A stretch of DNA of 64,000 nt from Patiria pectinifera (Eukaryota; Echinodermata; Asteroidea; Valvatida; Asterinidae). Where the stretch lies: assembly GCA_029964075.1 (NCBI GenBank), contig CM057129.1:17661430-17725429 (forward strand), read 5' to 3'. Made by a program: the position numbers and the translations under genes. Below the pieces are notes generated by a model. It saw only the letters and a list, made by a program, of their open reading frames with translations, did no database searches and was not told where the DNA came from. Below, one piece after another: positions 3,001 to 56,930 of the stretch. Numbering within the stretch: the first letter of the stretch is position 1; each line of letters begins with the position of its first letter.

Positions 3001-3234
3001 GGAAGTGGGCGGGGGAGGAAGTGGGCGGGAACAAGAAACTGGGCTACTTGGCCTTGTCTTGTGACCGGATTCATGACCTGAGGTGAGCGACTTGTAATTG
3101 GTGAAATAACGTTAGTATATGGAGGTAATCTAGTAATTAACATGGACCTAGACTTGGGCTAGGCTAGGGTTAAGTGATTGTATGTAAATGTAGTAAAAAA
3201 AACTCATATTTGCCGCAAATTTTGTTCTCTGCAG
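1..3234. other. 5' flank or first intron of the Wnt gene; no exon confirmed
   Basis: The required signal-peptide exon should lie here or further 5'. I found no convincing one. A possible donor AG|GTGAGC at 3083 has the right phase and is discussed in the findings. The open frames at 762-1088 (+) and 842-1309 (-) overlap each other and match no family I know. The stretch holds three TAGGCCTA octamers (661, 1631, 1641), a G-run near 2503-2517, a (GTT)5 run at 2964-2980 and a G-rich stretch at 2982-3030. Otherwise I see nothing in it. Confidence 0.6.
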
Positions 3235-3500
3235 GTCCCTATCGCTCGTCCACACATTCCCGCGGGTCTATGGACTAGGAGACTGGCAATCCCCAGAGAC
3301 TAAACGTTACTGCCACTCGCAGAACTGGCTCAGTATGCGCCAACGCAGACTGTGTGAGCTTCACCCAGACCTTATCCCAAGCCTGACGGAAGGCATACTG
3401 GCAGGCATCGGAGAGTGCAAACGCAACTTCAAGGATATGAGGTGGAATTGTCCAGTCAGTAACGTGACGGCCGTGTTTGGACCCAGCAGGTTGAGGACAA
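3235..3500 (+). CDS. Wnt16: Wnt16-like secreted ligand, exon 2 (N-terminal domain, partial gene)
   Basis: Encodes the first part of the cysteine-rich, lipid-modified Wnt ligand, which is secreted and binds Frizzled/LRP receptors. Seen: a polypyrimidine stretch and TTCTCTGCAG acceptor end at 3234, and the donor AA|GTAAGTG follows 3500. The exon is 266 bp: one base completing a codon, 88 codons, then one base (phase 2 in, phase 1 out). The peptide contains KRYC, RLCELHPDLIPSLTEG, GECKRNF and MRWNC, giving four cysteines at Wnt-typical spacing, and an N-glycosylation sequon NVT just after WNC. LCxxxPxLxPSxxEG recalls Wnt16. No signal peptide is encoded here, so at least one upstream exon is required. 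The exon assignment (second of four) assumes the vertebrate WNT16 four-exon layout. Wnt identity is secure; Wnt4-like or a divergent Wnt are alternatives to the Wnt16 call. Confidence 0.93.
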
Positions 3501-3827
3501 GTAAGTGAATCGTAAATTAACATGATTGAACAAGATAGAGCCATTGCATGTACTTTATTTAGTGCTTGGTGCCCTTTCAAAGTAATTTTAAAATTGGGAG
3601 ATTGCCAACATAATTCTAGTCTGAGATTCAGACGTTCATGGTGCAGAGCCACTCTACAAATGTCTGATATATATCTGTGCATGTAGATTTTATGCGAACC
3701 CATGGGCCAGCCAATCAGAAGTTGTGACGTCATTTAGAGCAGAAGTTCGGCCAAAGCTGTTGATTGGTCAATGGACCCCTCTTATAGACAGCCATCTTTC
3801 GTAGGAAAATTACAACTGCGTGTTCAA

Positions 3828-3940: not shown

Positions 3941-4351
3941 CAAAATGCTGATGCATGTGACAATCTGTAGGAAGTGACGTCATTATCAGAGAGACCTCTA
4001 GCTGCCACGTGTTTCTCATATAACATGGTAACCAAAGACTTGATATGTTGTTTTGCATAATCTGCACGCATATCATTGACGCTTGCTGTGCAAGCGCTAT
4101 TCCATAGACTTAGTAGAATGCTTGTACAGTGTTCAGGAGGTCACAGGTTGATATCCTTCACCAGTCAAGTTCTTTGTTCAACCTTTTGTTGAAAGTTTGG
4201 AGTGCAAAGTTTGTGTCATTGGCTTTCCTGACAGTGCTGGTTTTGTAGCCAATTAAAACGTTCTCGGGTTAAATCACTTAAGGTTCAAGTTGGTGTCTTG
4301 CATCTTGCAAAAAAATTTGTACTCATTCTCTGAATTTCCTGCCACACCTAA

Positions 4352-23648: not shown

Positions 23649-23995
23649 TGCAAATCACAAATCAAAGGAGGAGAACTCACCTGTCAGTGCACTTTTCATA
23701 TAGAGTCATTGATTATTCATGAGGTAGAGTGGCCAGCCGTTTTGATTGGTCAAATGTTGTGGTTGCAAATCATGTCTGAGAGGAGTCGTCACCTGTCTAG
23801 TGCACTTTTAATATAGAGTCATTGATTATTCATGAAGTAGAGTGACAAAGCTTTTTGATTGGTCAAAAGTTTTTGCAAATCACTTCTGAGAGGAGAAGTC
23901 ACCAGTTCCTATCAGTGCACTTTTCATATAGAGAATTGATTGTTCATGAGGTACAGTGGTGAAGCTTTTTGATTGGCCAAAGGTTGTGGCTGATC
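23649..23995 (+). repeat. Three tandem copies of a 110-122 bp unit
   Basis: Units start with TGCAAATC at 23649, 23764 and 23874. Each contains CACCTGT or CACCAGT, AGTGCACTTTT, ATATAGAG, TTGATT(A/G)TTCATGA, GTAGAGTG or GTACAGTG, and TTTTGATTGG(T/C)CAAA. The copies differ by many substitutions, so the array is not recent. Each unit holds an octamer-like TGCAAAT and an inverted CCAAT box. Confidence 0.85.
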
Positions 23996-30436: not shown

Positions 30437-32560
30437 TGTGCAACCTTTGTTTCTGTATACTACAAGCCTGTCCTTCCCTGAACGGAATTAACACTTTACA
30501 CACATTTTTACACCATGTACAGGTCATTCCTAAAAGTAATGAAGTTATGCTTTCTCTTCCCATTCATTGCATTTTTGATTTAAAAGTTTTGACTTATTAT
30601 ATTCTTGCTTCGGACAAAAAAAATCCTCTTTGATTTTGTCTTACCTAAAATAAAATAATATTTGCCAAACAGCACAAACTTAATGCCATCAATAACATTC
30701 CTTTAGAATTCCCCTGGTGAGTTCAGGATTCTCAATAAAATGAAACTGTCCCACACTATTTACTCATTTATCTGGCACCAGAAACCCGGCCACTATTCAT
30801 CATTTTCCATTCAAAACTGTGAAGAATCCGGTCATGAAATTCAGGCCAAGCCTTATTAAAAAAAAGAAGGGAAAAAAAAAAGGCAATTGACATATTTTTT
30901 AGATTTACAGGGTTCCTATAAATTTCTCGGCTGTCAAGTTATCGCTCCCAGTAGAAGAATAACTGTAATCCATACCACAACTCCCAGAAAATATTTGAAG
31001 GGTGTGAAAATCTGTTGGGAAAAATTCAACTTGAAGCGAACTGTTTCCAATTCCGTTTGGAGTGATTTGAAGTGTGAGATGGTTGATGATTGATGCCTAA
31101 ATTCTCAATTTCAAGACAAATGTTTGAAACCTGAAGGTCCGAACCGTGAGAGGAAAAAGTAGTTAATCTTTGAGTGACCTCCCCACCCCCTTGACAGTTG
31201 GCAGTGATAATGGGAGAACCACACACTCTGAATATTTTTTTGTGTTTTTTTTTATTGCTCCCCAGATTTGGACACTTAGGTTTATGTGATTTCCACCATT
31301 GATCATAGTGGCACAATAATATGCCAACTGACCCAGTTCTTATGCAAAAGTTATTCTTTGGTTGAGTTTTAAAATGTCCATTACACTCCAGAGATGCAAA
31401 TAGCCATGGAAATATTTGCTGCCAGGGAGAATAGTTCTTGCTATTGACTGATGAGGCCGCTCTGGTAATATGTCCACTTTACGGACTCTCTTTATCAACA
31501 TCATGATAGATTGCTCTGAGATTTCTTTGTGGAGTAGAGAAAACTTTGAGTGATGCAATAGTTTTTATCTTAATAGGTCTCACTAAAAACAGAATCATGA
31601 GAAAACACCCCTTACTCTTATTTTTCACCTGATTTCATTTTACAGGGTAAAAATAACAAAAAAACACCGTGCATAAATGATAATTCCTAATCATGTCAAA
31701 TTCCAATTCTTGAAGAACTAAATCCCTTCGCATTTTCTCAAACAACAAATTCTCTGTCTTAAAAAAAGAATAATTGAAACATTTGTAAAGCTTTTCTAAG
31801 ATTCTAAATTCCTGATTAAAAAAGCTGATACTGCTTGTAATTTTGGAATAATCCAAATACAAATGTTTACACCTTAAATCTTTGAGTATTTGTCCATGTA
31901 CATGTAGTCGCTAAGGGTTGCAACTTCTTCTAAACCAAACTGGCAGGAATAGCAGCGGAGAAACCACTTGCAAATCGGTCTGCCTCCGTTTCCGACAAAG
32001 TAACCTACACGGAAAAACGTGACAGTCGCGGTTTCAGGTGCATTCCGGCACCTCCTTGCAAATATTGCAAGGAGGTGACATATCGCGTACCCTAAGACGA
32101 AGAAAAGCGTTGAGTGACGCTCGGATGTGACCCTAGGTCTAATACTTCAACGCAGGCACAAACCGGACAAGATGAAAATAACTGCAACACGTGTTGTGTG
32201 AACCACAGGACATTTGGAAGAAAAAAGTTGAACCCCTGTCTGACCACTTTGACGGTGTGGTTTGTTTTGCTGTCAACTACAGGAAAAAAAATGCCAGACA
32301 CAATTTAAAGTCACCATGTAGACAGTTTTGCTTTGACTTCACGTGCTTTCTTATTTCCAAAGAGAGAAAATTTACTCTATTTTATTAAAAATTCACTCCA
32401 TTTCAACGAACTGAATCTAGGGACAGGGCAATTTAGAGGGAAATTCATCCAGTGTATAAGATTGAGTTGTTTTAACTGAAGTGATTCTTTTTTAATAAGT
32501 GTCAATGTCACTGTAAATCATCTAGTCCCTAGTTTTACTCTTTGGAAATTAATTTTAACG
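30437..32560. other. AT-rich intron stretch, nothing recognised
   Basis: No repeats, RNA genes or domain-bearing frames were seen on either strand. Confidence 0.5.
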
Positions 32561-33295
32561 TTGAACAAAGAAATTGAACCTGCGACCACTAGATCACTGT
32601 TGTGACGCTCCAGATCATTGTTGCGACGCTCCAGATCACCGTTGCGACACTCCGGATCATGGTTGCGACGCTCCAAATCACTGTTGTGACGCTCTGGATC
32701 ACCGTTGCGACACTCCGGATCATGGTTGCGACGCTCCAAATCACTGTTGTGACGCTCTGGATCACTGTTGTGACGCTCTGGATCACCGTTGCGACGCTCC
32801 GGATCACCATTGCGATGCACCAGATCACTGTTGCGATGCTCGGGGTCCCTGTTGCGACGCTCTGGATGCCCGTTGTGATGCTCTGGATCACCATTGCGAC
32901 GGTCCAGATCACCGTTGTAATGCTTCGGATCACCATTGCGATACTCTGGATCATCGTTGCAATGCTCCAGATCACCGTTGCAATGCTCTGGATCACCGTT
33001 GCAATGCTCCGGATCACCGTTGCAATGCTCCGGATCACCGTTGCAATGCTCCGGATCACCATTGCAATGCTCCGGATCACTGTTGTGACGCTCCGGATCA
33101 CCATTGCAACACTGCAGATCACCGTTGCAATGCTCCGGATCACCATTGCGATACTCTGGATCACTGTTGTGACGCTCTTCCAACTCAGCTAACCAGCCCT
33201 ATGTTGGTGGTTCCTAACTGTACATGCCAAATGTCACCAAAACAGCCCTGTGTTTGTCCACAAACAAAAGTCTAGTTGTCAGTGTCTTTGTTCAA
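32561..33295 (-). repeat. tRNA-derived SINE with internally expanded 21-bp array
   Basis: The ends TTGAACAAAGAAATTGA and TGTCTTTGTTCAA are the same inverted termini as the unexpanded element at 45274-45401. On the minus strand a D-arm/A-box-like GGTTAGCTGAGTTGGAAGAG (33178-33194 region) precedes the array. GGTCGCAGGTTCAA, the T-arm/B-box region (32573-32587), follows it. The array thus sits where the anticodon arm belongs. Confidence 0.8.
32591..33178. repeat. 21-bp minisatellite, 28 copies
   Basis: 588 bp, exactly 28 units, of a GATCACTGTTGTGACGCTCCG-like word. Units vary at a few positions (C/T, A/G; for example ACCATTGCGATGCTC and ACCGTTGCAATGCTC), with a homogeneous TTGCAATGCTC block at about 32955-33070. 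Because 21 is a multiple of three and the unit lacks stops, several frames on both strands stay open for 190-230 codons. These encode heptapeptide repeats and are not supported as genes. Confidence 0.97.
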
Positions 33296-35384
33296 GGGAC
33301 ACCCTCTAAGACATTAGAGAGTGTCCTTAGTTTTACCCTTTTGTAAACATGCATGTCGATTTGGCAGGCTGCTGGAAAACTACCAGCTTCAAGAAAATGG
33401 TTTCGGTTCTTCTGTGAAAAAAAAGAAAAAAAAAAGAAAGGTAATGTAATTGGTTAATTGAGAGGAAAAACGAGAGTGCTGGGGAACAGACTAACGCTCC
33501 TCGCCTGGAGGTGTTAATAACCAACAGTACAATGACTGTCTGGTACCCTACGTCCCCAATGGCCCAATCCCTGAACATATTTCCCGTCCTTTGAAATATC
33601 TCCTCTTCCCCGGCCGATTTACACCTGTTATCTCATTTCCGCCAATTTTCACCGCGCCGTCACCTGAGAGAAATGACAATATACCTGCGGCCGATTTTCC
33701 CCCCGGCTTTTTGCTTTAACCTCCCCCCCTGCACCTTCCTCCCGACTGCACGGGAATTTCAAAATCTGGGAGGGGAGTGTGTTTGGGCTTGTGTGCCTGG
33801 CTAAGGTTTGGGACTTGCATGATCTTTTGGGGATTGTTCCCATAATAGAAGCCAAACGTGTGGAGAGATTAGGTAGACGCCTGTTTCCTTTAATGTCTAT
33901 CCTGCTCAGATTATAAAGATTTCACGGCAAGATAGGTTCGGTCTGTGCCCCATTGGAAATGTGCTTGATCTTGATTGGTTGATTGATTGATGGATCGACT
34001 CAATGCTTTAGGCAGAGTAGGTTGTTCCCGGTGACTATAGATATTTGCCGAAAAGTTAATCCATTGAAGTTGACCGACATTTTGTGATCTGGTGTTTAAT
34101 AACGTTAACATTAAGTTAAACAAAGAGATGTGTACATACATCATAAGTCGCTAGAAATGTTAAAAAGGTTGATTCTGACCAGACCATGCACACTGAAATA
34201 CAAGCTAGTGAAGTAGGAATTAGAAAATGTTGTCTTTTTTGTAATACGCTGAGTATTTTCACAACAGAAAGCAAGTTCAGGTGAGGACCATAAGTTGACT
34301 AGTGGTTGATTTGTGATGTAACTTTAGCTGCGCACTACTAGCAACATGTGAACGTCTCTAGTCAAACGATTGGTCAAAACGTCATCACGAAACTCCATGG
34401 TGAGGTCCTGGCTCCCTGCTGTGCTTTGATGTGCACAGCTAGTGGTCACCAGCGAAGTAACCGTGCCATGGGATTCGGTTCCAAGCAGTCGACTGGAGAC
34501 AGTATTATTATTACCCCTGATCACTGGGCCAATGAAACATTCCAAATACCATCTCAGCTCCCTGGGGAGTATACAGCTCGATGCTGCCTGTTAGGCGCAA
34601 GCAAGCTTATTTAGTCCAACCATCCTCCCTTCAAGTAAAACTTAGTTAAACTTAAGTCTTTCAAAAACTTTTTCATTTTTGAAAAAGCGTCAAATTTTGT
34701 GTTCAACCACTCATATTCCATATTATTGATATTACCTCGTCACAGGTTTTATTCGCCATGGACCAACCGTGAATTTTAGTTCATTCGGGGACACCATCAG
34801 AAATGTGACCTCAAACATTTGCATAGATGCAAAAGGGGATTAGCATGAACCGGTTTTTGAGGAGACAGGCTTCAGACAACTTCAGACAACAGTGAAAAAA
34901 ACTTTGACACAAAATGAAAAACCCAACCCAAAATGAGCTGCAATTCCTCAGCCCGGCAGTTCATTGGCCGATTAACATTGTAGGAGTATCCTAGGTATCC
35001 AAGTTGGACCCAGCTGGGCTCAATATTCAATCAATTATCTCATTACCGTACCAGACACCTGCGCTGTAGCATGGGGCATTGACGGACACATTTATTTTCC
35101 TTGCACAGAAGTGTATACTGTAGCATGAGGGCACTAGGCACGGAGGTTGTGGGTGAATTCACAACAGCTAAAATGATAATGTATGGTGCTAGCTTGTACT
35201 CACTTTGTGTTCAAGTTTACTTTGATTATACTTGTAAAACAAAGGGTTTTGTGACATGGAAGGCGATTTTCATGTTACATTGTGCAACCGCAATCTTACT
35301 CTTATTACGGACTTTACTGTGCGAACCTTAAAATGTTATAAAACAAATTTTATTTTGCATCGGGTAATGTAAATGCAATATTTG
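33296..35384. other. Unique intron stretch, nothing recognised
   Basis: 33580-33850 and 34330-34620 are higher-complexity and less AT-rich than average. No exon or repeat was recognised. Confidence 0.45.
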
Positions 35385-45273: not shown

Positions 45274-45401
45274 TTGAACAAAGAAATTGACAGGAGCAGG
45301 GTTTGAACCTGCGACCTCCAGATTGCCATTCCAGTGTTCTACCAACTGAGCTATCAAACCCTTTGTTAACGGTTCCCCATTTTGTCGATATCTTTGTTCA
45401 A
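45274..45401 (-). repeat. tRNA-derived SINE, short complete copy
   Basis: On the minus strand: TTGAACAAAGATATCGAC, then GGGTTTGATAGCTCAGTTGG (A box), TAGAACACTGGAATGGCAAT, CTGGAGGTCGCAGGTTCAAA (B box GGTTCAAACC) and TCAATTTCTTTGTTCAA. The 13-17 bp ends are inverted repeats. The head looks like a tRNA with a D-arm, anticodon region and T-arm. The acceptor stem does not pair cleanly and an extra body is attached, so it is a SINE, not a tRNA gene. Confidence 0.75.
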
Positions 45402-53298: not shown

Positions 53299-53690
53299 AT
53301 TGTAATTGAGTAAATCACAAGTCCATCACAAGTCCATCACAAGTCCATCACAAGTACATCACAAGTCCATCACAAGTCCATCACAAGTCCATCACAAGTC
53401 CATCACAAGTCCATCACAAGTCCATCACAAGTCCATCACAAGTCCATCACAAGTCCATCACAAGTCCATCACAAGTCCATCACAAGTCCATCACAAGTCC
53501 AGCACAAGTCCATCACAAGTCCATCACAAGTACATCACAAGTCCATCATGAGTCAAGGCACACCTGTGATAAAAGCATTATTTTTTGTCGTTGTTCATCC
53601 CTTGATACTCGTGACTGGACTTGTGAATTGAGTTGTGATTTACTAGTGACCAGACATGTGATGTTCTTATGATGAACTCGACTAGAACAC
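53299..53690. repeat. CATCACAAGTC element carrying an 11-bp tandem array
   Basis: The left end AATTGTAATTGAGTAAATCAC and the right end GATGAACTCGACTAGAACAC are imperfect inverted repeats related to the ends of 19107-19288. The right half contains ACTGGACTTGTGAATTG and ACTAGTGACCAGACATGTG in opposite sense to the array in the left half. The element begins about 28 bp after the exon 3 donor. Confidence 0.6.
53314..53554 (+). repeat. 11-bp minisatellite (ATCACAAGTCC)n, about 22 copies
   Basis: About 241 bp of head-to-tail ATCACAAGTCC. Two units read ACAAGTACATC and one has CCAGCAC; otherwise copies are identical, which suggests recent expansion or homogenisation. It starts about 43 bp after the exon 3 splice donor. 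The open frame across it is a by-product of a unit without stops, not a gene. Confidence 0.95.
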
Positions 53691-55264: not shown

Positions 55265-55400
55265 TTTGTTGCACTTTGTTGGAGGTCGTTGGTTCGAGTC
55301 CCAACCAAGTGATATTTTCCAACTTTTACTCGGGAGGTAACACACTGAGTATACAGTGTTTATACGTCGGTGAAGGGCAAAACCTAATTTGAAAGACACC
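55265..55400 (+). repeat. tRNA-derived SINE (GGTTCGAGTCC family), 5'-truncated
   Basis: B box GGTTCGAGTCC at 55291, then GTGATATTTTCCAACTTTTA, CTCGGGAGGTAACACACTGA and CGTCGGTGAAGGGCAAAACC. The body is nearly identical to 56832-56930. The A box is not recognisable. Confidence 0.7.
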
Positions 55401-56762: not shown

Positions 56763-56930
56763 AACAGATAGCTCGGTGGTCAAGTGGTGAGACATCTGCA
56801 CTAGAAAGCAGGAGGTCTTGGGTTCGAGTCCCACCCGAGTGATTTTTTCCAAATTTCGCTCGGGAGGTAACACACTGAGTATATGGTGTTCAAACGTCGG
56901 TGAAGGGCAAACCTAATTTGAGATGAAACA
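56763..56930 (+). repeat. tRNA-derived SINE (GGTTCGAGTCC family), best copy
   Basis: A box TGGTCAAGTGG at 56777 and perfect B box GGTTCGAGTCC at 56821, separated by GACATCTGCACTAGAAAGCA, as in a Ser-type tRNA. The body follows: CTCGGGAGGTAACACACTGA, ACGTCGGTGAAGGGC, CTAATTTGAGATGAAA. Confidence 0.8.

Follow-up and report, generated by a model that had tools for sequence, protein, structure and literature searches.

A minisatellite in the genome of the sea star Patiria pectinifera takes the place of the anticodon arm in one copy of a dispersed tRNA-derived repeat, on the minus strand, a conclusion well supported by sequence comparison. It lies on contig CM057129.1 (assembly GCA_029964075.1) within a stretch of 64,000 nucleotides, referred to here as the window, whose first base is position 1. 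A retroposon very probably inserted here and had its arm expanded in place to 28 units, leaving a copy that now seems inert and is decaying. The features are as follows, the minus strand being the tRNA sense.

32525 to 32543, no strand: flanking direct repeat, copy 1 (GTCCCTAGTTTTACTCTTT), read as a target-site duplication, 17 of 19 positions identical to 33323 to 33341
32544 to 33322, minus strand: whole copy, apparently retroposed, 779 bp, between the direct repeats
32561 to 32577, minus strand: 3′ inverted repeat (TTGAACAAAGAAATTGA on the plus strand), identical to 45274 to 45290
32570 to 32580, minus strand: damaged B box GGTTCAATTTC, the remainder of the T arm deleted, placed by position and family consensus
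32574 to 32589, minus strand: variable loop and start of the T arm, GTGGTCGCAGGTTCAA
32590 to 33177, minus strand: array of 28 anticodon-arm units of 21 bp, from TRF and the unit cut
33180 to 33192, minus strand: D arm and A box, TTAGCTGAGTTGG
33193 to 33214, minus strand: acceptor region and family leader, GGAACCACCAACATAGGGCTGG
33215 to 33276, minus strand: 62 bp fragment from a different dispersed repeat (terminus AACTAGACTT../..AAGTCTAGTT) within the leader
33285 to 33295, minus strand: 5′ inverted repeat (TCTTTGTTCAA on the plus strand), with an exact match at 45391
33323 to 33341, no strand: flanking direct repeat, copy 2 (GTCCTTAGTTTTACCCTTT), from direct-repeat comparison
45274 to 45401, minus strand: unexpanded module of the family, its body tRNA-like (tRNA call at 45288 to 45360; ARAGORN, and Rfam tRNA at 42.5 bits)

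Cutting the window sequence into units gives 28 full 21 bp units at 32590–33177, in register and with no indels, and TRF reports a period of 21, 27.9 copies, 80% matches and 0% indels at 32592–33177. The original prediction was of a unit repeated exactly 28 times, which holds for unit number and register and fails for the sequence; the units are about 80% alike, with six types present twice and the remaining 16 units once each. A tandem unit of 21 bp repeated 28 times in register falls within the usual range of minisatellites (about 10–100 bp), and this one resides in a retroposon, the unit being homologous to and in phase with unexpanded copies and element sequence lying on both sides; it is a single array of 588 bp within a dispersed copy. 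The longest exact repeat inside it is 69 bp at an offset of 63 (32634 and 32697), and mean unit identity declines from 0.80–0.83 between units one to five apart to 0.74–0.79 at 10 to 14 units. Identity that falls with distance, together with block repeats, is what arrays growing by local duplication usually show. Elsewhere in the window TRF finds a second minisatellite, with an 11 bp unit (ATCACAAGTCC, 21.4 copies, 97%) at 53314–53548, and a tandem repeat of 113 bp in 2.8 copies at 23668–23989.

The family was sampled as 67 loci (given L numbers here) out of 123 places located by the inverted-repeat pattern in the 613.5 Mb assembly. Its arm reads GAGCACCGGAACGG(C/T)AATCCG and that of the array GAGCGTCGCAACGGTGATCCG; by eye, the arm of the 59-copy consensus, GAGCACCGGAACGGCAATCCG with C or T at position 15, agrees with the array consensus at 16 of 21 positions, or 17 with T, and the two are in the same phase with GAG at both sides. 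The array consensus matches the arm of L004 at 15 of 21 positions in phase, a value reached by none of 20,000 shuffles in phase and 18 of 20,000 in any phase. A genome-wide search for the unit with its right flank, allowing three mismatches, returns 151 places and none for the reversed control; among the matches listed (all but 51 of these) the array alone has no mismatch, none has one, 13 have two and 86 others have three, and the nearest unexpanded arms listed agree at 18 of 21 positions by eye (e.g. C19:28217662 and C22:18805321). The anticodon region of unexpanded copies thus resembles the unit and carries it at the same place and phase, as had been proposed. Matches spanning D arm to T arm number 67 in the sampled loci and the window, counting the short window element twice (as L002 and in the window); 42 have a 24 nt arm, six of 51–323 nt are by eye not real arms, and the array is the single case of 591 nt. 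Gene conversion from a downstream GTCGCA was considered as the source of the unit's own bases and rejected, since each change occurs singly in unexpanded copies among the matches listed.

The sequences flanking the array are those originally recognized, with the D arm and A box TTAGCTGAGTTGG at 33180–33192 and the T-arm and B-box side GTGGTCGCAGGTTCAA at 32574–32589, the T arm being partial. Only its first part remains; by eye against the 59-copy consensus the family sequence GGTTCAAACCCCGCTCCAGTCAATTTC has become GGTTCAATTTC, a loss that corresponds to a 16 nt deletion between two TCAA repeats. The inverted repeats TTGAACAAAGA (32561) and TCTTTGTTCAA (33285) are exact, with identical copies at 45274 and 45391, and TCTTTGTTCAA is additionally present on its own at 4171 of the window. 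The expanded copy looks retroposed because a direct repeat matching at 17 of 19 positions flanks it, and no pair of window segments among 1,500 random draws reached its score (the 1,500 include draws that were skipped for lying within 2 kb of the array). These flanking repeats put the true extent of the copy at 32544–33322, larger than the 32561–33295 first delimited, with its end 17 nt beyond its 3′ inverted repeat, or about +105 in family numbering. Ahead of the array, 4 of the 41 aligned bases depart from the family consensus, similar to the 9.7% median divergence among family copies. The foreign repeat at 33215–33276 has a sharp terminus (AACTAGACTT/AAGTCTAGTT) and is common, with 40 matches scored of 352 candidates, that of the expanded copy included, and its junction with the family leader, giving the copy a chimeric head, occurs once in the genome within three mismatches. 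At the short window element (45274–45401) the best direct repeat is 8 bp in 60 bp flanks and 11 of 12 in 120 bp flanks, which is unconvincing as a target duplication.

What kind of element this is can be judged from 73 family alignments, scored against a tandem target and with some loci giving one per orientation. Of these, 62 begin upstream of the 5′ inverted repeat and 59 extend beyond the 3′ one, as counted in a sample chosen by the inverted-repeat pattern and from local-alignment ends, two of which are cut by the end of the fetched stretch. The inverted ends thought to bound both window elements are indeed identical at 45274–45401, but they are not supported as element termini, being passed by most of these alignments. 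Transposition by a DNA transposase, of a foldback element or MITE with the 17–19 bp inverted repeats as its ends, would fit the presence of those repeats at both ends of the tRNA module in the two window copies and the inverted modules of L042 and L061; yet 62/73 and 59/73 alignments run past the supposed ends, and the sole convincing duplication, at the expanded copy, is 19 bp long and lies 17 and 27 bp outside the inverted repeats, so that we hold such an origin to be very improbable. In a few family copies a second tRNA module lies 335 bp from the first, and joins in inverted orientation are also seen; two full modules are seen in seven of the 73 alignments, at least two of these through inverted modules. 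In L042 and L061 the first tRNA module is inverted within the inverted repeats that enclose it, as if turned around on the spot.

The family has a common 3′ end with variable 5′ truncation, starts being scattered from −581 to +106 and 3′ ends falling at +92 to +112 in 38 of the 73 alignments, at +125 to +162 in 21 and elsewhere in 14. Ends of the first class lie directly behind TTTT, by eye a possible pol III stop, and the end of the expanded copy at about +105 belongs to this main class. A tRNA-like body with A and B boxes is present at 45288–45360 and in the 59-copy consensus. Direct repeats in a copy's own flanks reach a score of at least 8 at 12 of 48 loci, compared with 38 of 336 swapped pairs, and of at least 11 at 2 of 48 compared with 0 of 336, the 48 being those loci with one orientation, both flanks and a span of no more than 520 bp, with the rest dropped. 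The designation SINE offered at the outset suits the tRNA-like body and the common 3′ end and is at odds with a long leader upstream of the tRNA, 62 of the 73 alignments starting more than 41 nt upstream of it.

A second possibility is a TRIM of the Helenus kind, with tRNA sequence inside LTRs and the array within one LTR, as such elements are described in Kojima 2024 (PMC10886601). Some copies do have the order module, about 207 bp internal region, module; L004 and L069 have their start no more than 3 nt from the first inverted repeat; and the module can be read as TGAACAAAG...CTTTGTTCA. As in Helenus as described there, tRNA-like promoter sequence sits in a module flanking a short internal region, here in few copies, while the scattered 5′ ends, the 3′ ends past the module and the long direct repeats at some copies are unlike it. 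In 38 of the 73 alignments the 3′ end lies 4–24 nt past the module; by eye, neither window copy has a 4 bp duplication where its module ends, nor is a tRNA primer-binding site apparent. We consider a Helenus-like TRIM rather unlikely and call the family a SINE-like tRNA retroposon, not a classical SINE because the tRNA is not at the 5′ end, and not Helenus because most ends lie off the module borders. A tRNA-like sequence at window positions 56769–56843 and 55281–55392 (Rfam 40.3 bits), part of which recurs nearby with its 3′ flank at 88%, is perhaps another tRNA-derived dispersed repeat.

Expansion of the arm looks unusual within the family. The exact pair GTTGGTAGAGC..GAGGTCGCAGG at unexpanded spacing is found at 537 genome places, which may include tRNA genes and units of the 67 bp arrays on contig C17 described below, and at none for the reversed control. 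At two- or three-arm spacing the same exact flanks occur nowhere in the genome, and at four- or five-arm spacing they occur at two places, both in one other array (L100). A degenerate tandem-arm pattern allowing three mismatches gives 30 places, 27 within the array and three elsewhere, these with three mismatches (controls, 2 and 2); exact T-arm duplicates with periods of 19–49 number zero; and the array used as a DNA query finds only itself in a genome search that skips common words. No second 21 bp array was found, with or without SINE flanks, by searches that miss strongly decayed copies.

In the reading we prefer, a tRNA-containing retroposon copy would have inserted, creating a direct repeat of about 19 bp, after which, in this single copy, the 21 bp arm segment between two GAG triplets would have been duplicated in tandem. 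Growth to 28 units would then have come from repeated in-register duplication, by slippage or unequal exchange and at times in three-unit blocks, and the copy would now be inert and decaying mainly through CpG loss; no function of the array is indicated. Growth in place is suggested because no other copies of the 21 bp array were found. It counts against this account that the arm offers a microhomology of just 3 bp (GAG), that the module contains longer direct repeats which were passed over, and that indels are not enriched in the arm.

The order of events could also have been the reverse, with expansion in the RNA or the source element and retroposition of an expanded element of about 780 nt. 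The entire array does lie inside the 19 bp direct repeats, and two arrays on C17 share variant combinations in differently truncated copies, which indicates that expanded forms can be copied; but neither another 21 bp array nor another copy with the chimeric head was found, and non-CpG divergence among the units (14/364) is below that of dispersed copies in the arm (68/825), which suggests growth or homogenization after insertion. We regard expansion before insertion as unlikely.

The same counts bear on how the array has aged. Unit differences are mostly CpG loss: 67 of 112 CpG sites have changed (45 intact, 60 CA or TG, four TA and three CC), compared with 14 of 364 non-CpG bases that depart from the array consensus. 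Unexpanded arms retain 88 of 173 CpG sites and show changes from the consensus at 68 of 825 other bases, C/T site 15 being excluded. The array looks younger or better homogenized at ordinary sites and more worn at CpG, a comparison that is suggestive only, as the units are not independent. Greater CpG wear is as expected under methylation, and the array has a CpG observed/expected ratio of 1.07, the window one of 0.58; the strong CpG pattern points to methylation of the array, which would carry a record of its decay. A protein repeat of seven residues encoded by the array would give open frames across it on both strands, but the four that exist (226, 236, 199 and 199 aa from stop to stop) are expected for a stop-free unit divisible by three. 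The changes fall mostly at CpG sites, and of two frames scanned with Pfam one gave a sub-threshold match (22.7 bits, cut-off 27.6) and the other none, leaving a coding role scarcely credible. A probable Wnt family gene exon (Pfam PF00110, E 1.3e-10) is present at 3197–3505 of the window.

The distance from A to B box is 611 bp in the expanded copy and 44 bp in the family consensus, where a separation of about 600 bp had first been suggested, and there is no run of four T between the two boxes of the expanded copy. The B box consensus is GGTTCRANNCC, and the GGTTCAATTTC of the expanded copy has lost one C relative to it. Because the B box is damaged, a stretched pol III promoter that works is unsupported, and we think that the promoter of the expanded copy is dead. 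Nor is support found for the slippage at a tRNA-like hairpin that had been put forward as the cause of expansion: indel density is 16.1 per 1,000 copy-bases in the arm and 8.4–25.0 in other parts of the module. Folded as DNA, the family arm forms a 5 bp hairpin (z −2.5) and the array unit alone does no better than shuffles (z 0.0); the RNA fold of the whole expanded copy has a z of −2.5 (20 shuffles), which is hard to interpret in a tandem array. At a permissive threshold Rfam gives 10 matches over the array, all under gathering scores.

The tRNA module has also been amplified in a different way. In L100 (C17:13410300–13412600) the whole tRNA body forms a 67 bp unit repeated 15.0 times at 89% (TRF; L100:664–1668), between the family's own leader and tail and with up to 15 A/B-box pairs in succession, some not intact. 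L101 (C17:12908700–12910700) has 8.0 copies of 67 bp at 82% (TRF; L101:656–1195) and is more diverged. The junction of 67 bp units, allowing three mismatches, is found at 19 genome places, 14 in L100 and five in L101, and at none for the reversed control. The two copies lie 0.5 Mb apart on one contig and are truncated differently; the 20 longest BLAST matches between them are all inside L101 618–1218, none of them showing similarity of the flanks, and no target duplication was found at either. The variant combination ACAGGAA is present in 11 of 15 L100 units, 2 of 7 L101 units and 0 of 48 unexpanded bodies, GCAATTCTGAGG in three, two and 0 of 48, and AACCCTAC in two, two and 0 of 48, in counts that omit the first L101 unit, which is one base longer. 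The nine single-base states common to both arrays are each also seen in 3 to 13 of the 48 unexpanded bodies, so that a common ancestor array is indicated by the combinations alone. Such an array may have been carried between the sites either by RNA or by recombination. We suggest, tentatively, that minisatellites arise repeatedly from this family's tRNA module, in which the 21 bp arm (28 units, contig C1) and the 67 bp body (C17) expanded independently and the 67 bp array was itself carried to a second site as a still-mobile expanded retroposon with many A and B boxes in a row; we would put this at distinctly less than an even chance.

Several known systems offer parallels. The mouse (GGCAGA)n minisatellite from B1 (Bois 1998) and human minisatellites from Alu (Jurka and Gentles 2006), both cited in PMC6947457 and PMC9659126, similarly come from tandem amplification of a short internal segment of a retroposed copy; the present element differs from them, as those texts present them, in being tRNA-derived, with the anticodon arm as its unit, one locus found and no VNTR family. 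In the Haber–Louis model (as described in PMC6947457) duplication occurs between short direct repeats of 5–10 bp and growth follows; the array is similar in its short-repeat duplication and later growth and differs in having a microhomology of 3 bp (GAG). Hydromantes Hy/Pol III and Xenopus Satellite 1 are listed in PMC9659126 among the satellites from tRNA-related SINE regions. There too a tRNA-related region became tandem DNA, but these are listed as satellite DNAs whereas the 21 bp case is one 588 bp array in a dispersed copy; L100 and L101, in which the whole tRNA body is repeated, are the closer parallel. No description of an anticodon-arm minisatellite in a tRNA-derived SINE was found in the titles and abstract openings of open-licence literature, which is weak evidence of absence.

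The event is thus of a known kind, a clear but ordinary birth of a minisatellite inside mobile DNA, in one old copy. What we did not find described in that literature is a repeat unit made from a tRNA anticodon arm, within a family showing at least one further expansion with another unit. One genome holds the ancestor sequence, the register, the insertion scars and hundreds of unexpanded relatives, which makes the birth of this minisatellite readable. Three arrays of the same family would permit testing of what sets the site and manner in which an array starts, and would also test whether expanded retroposons move again.
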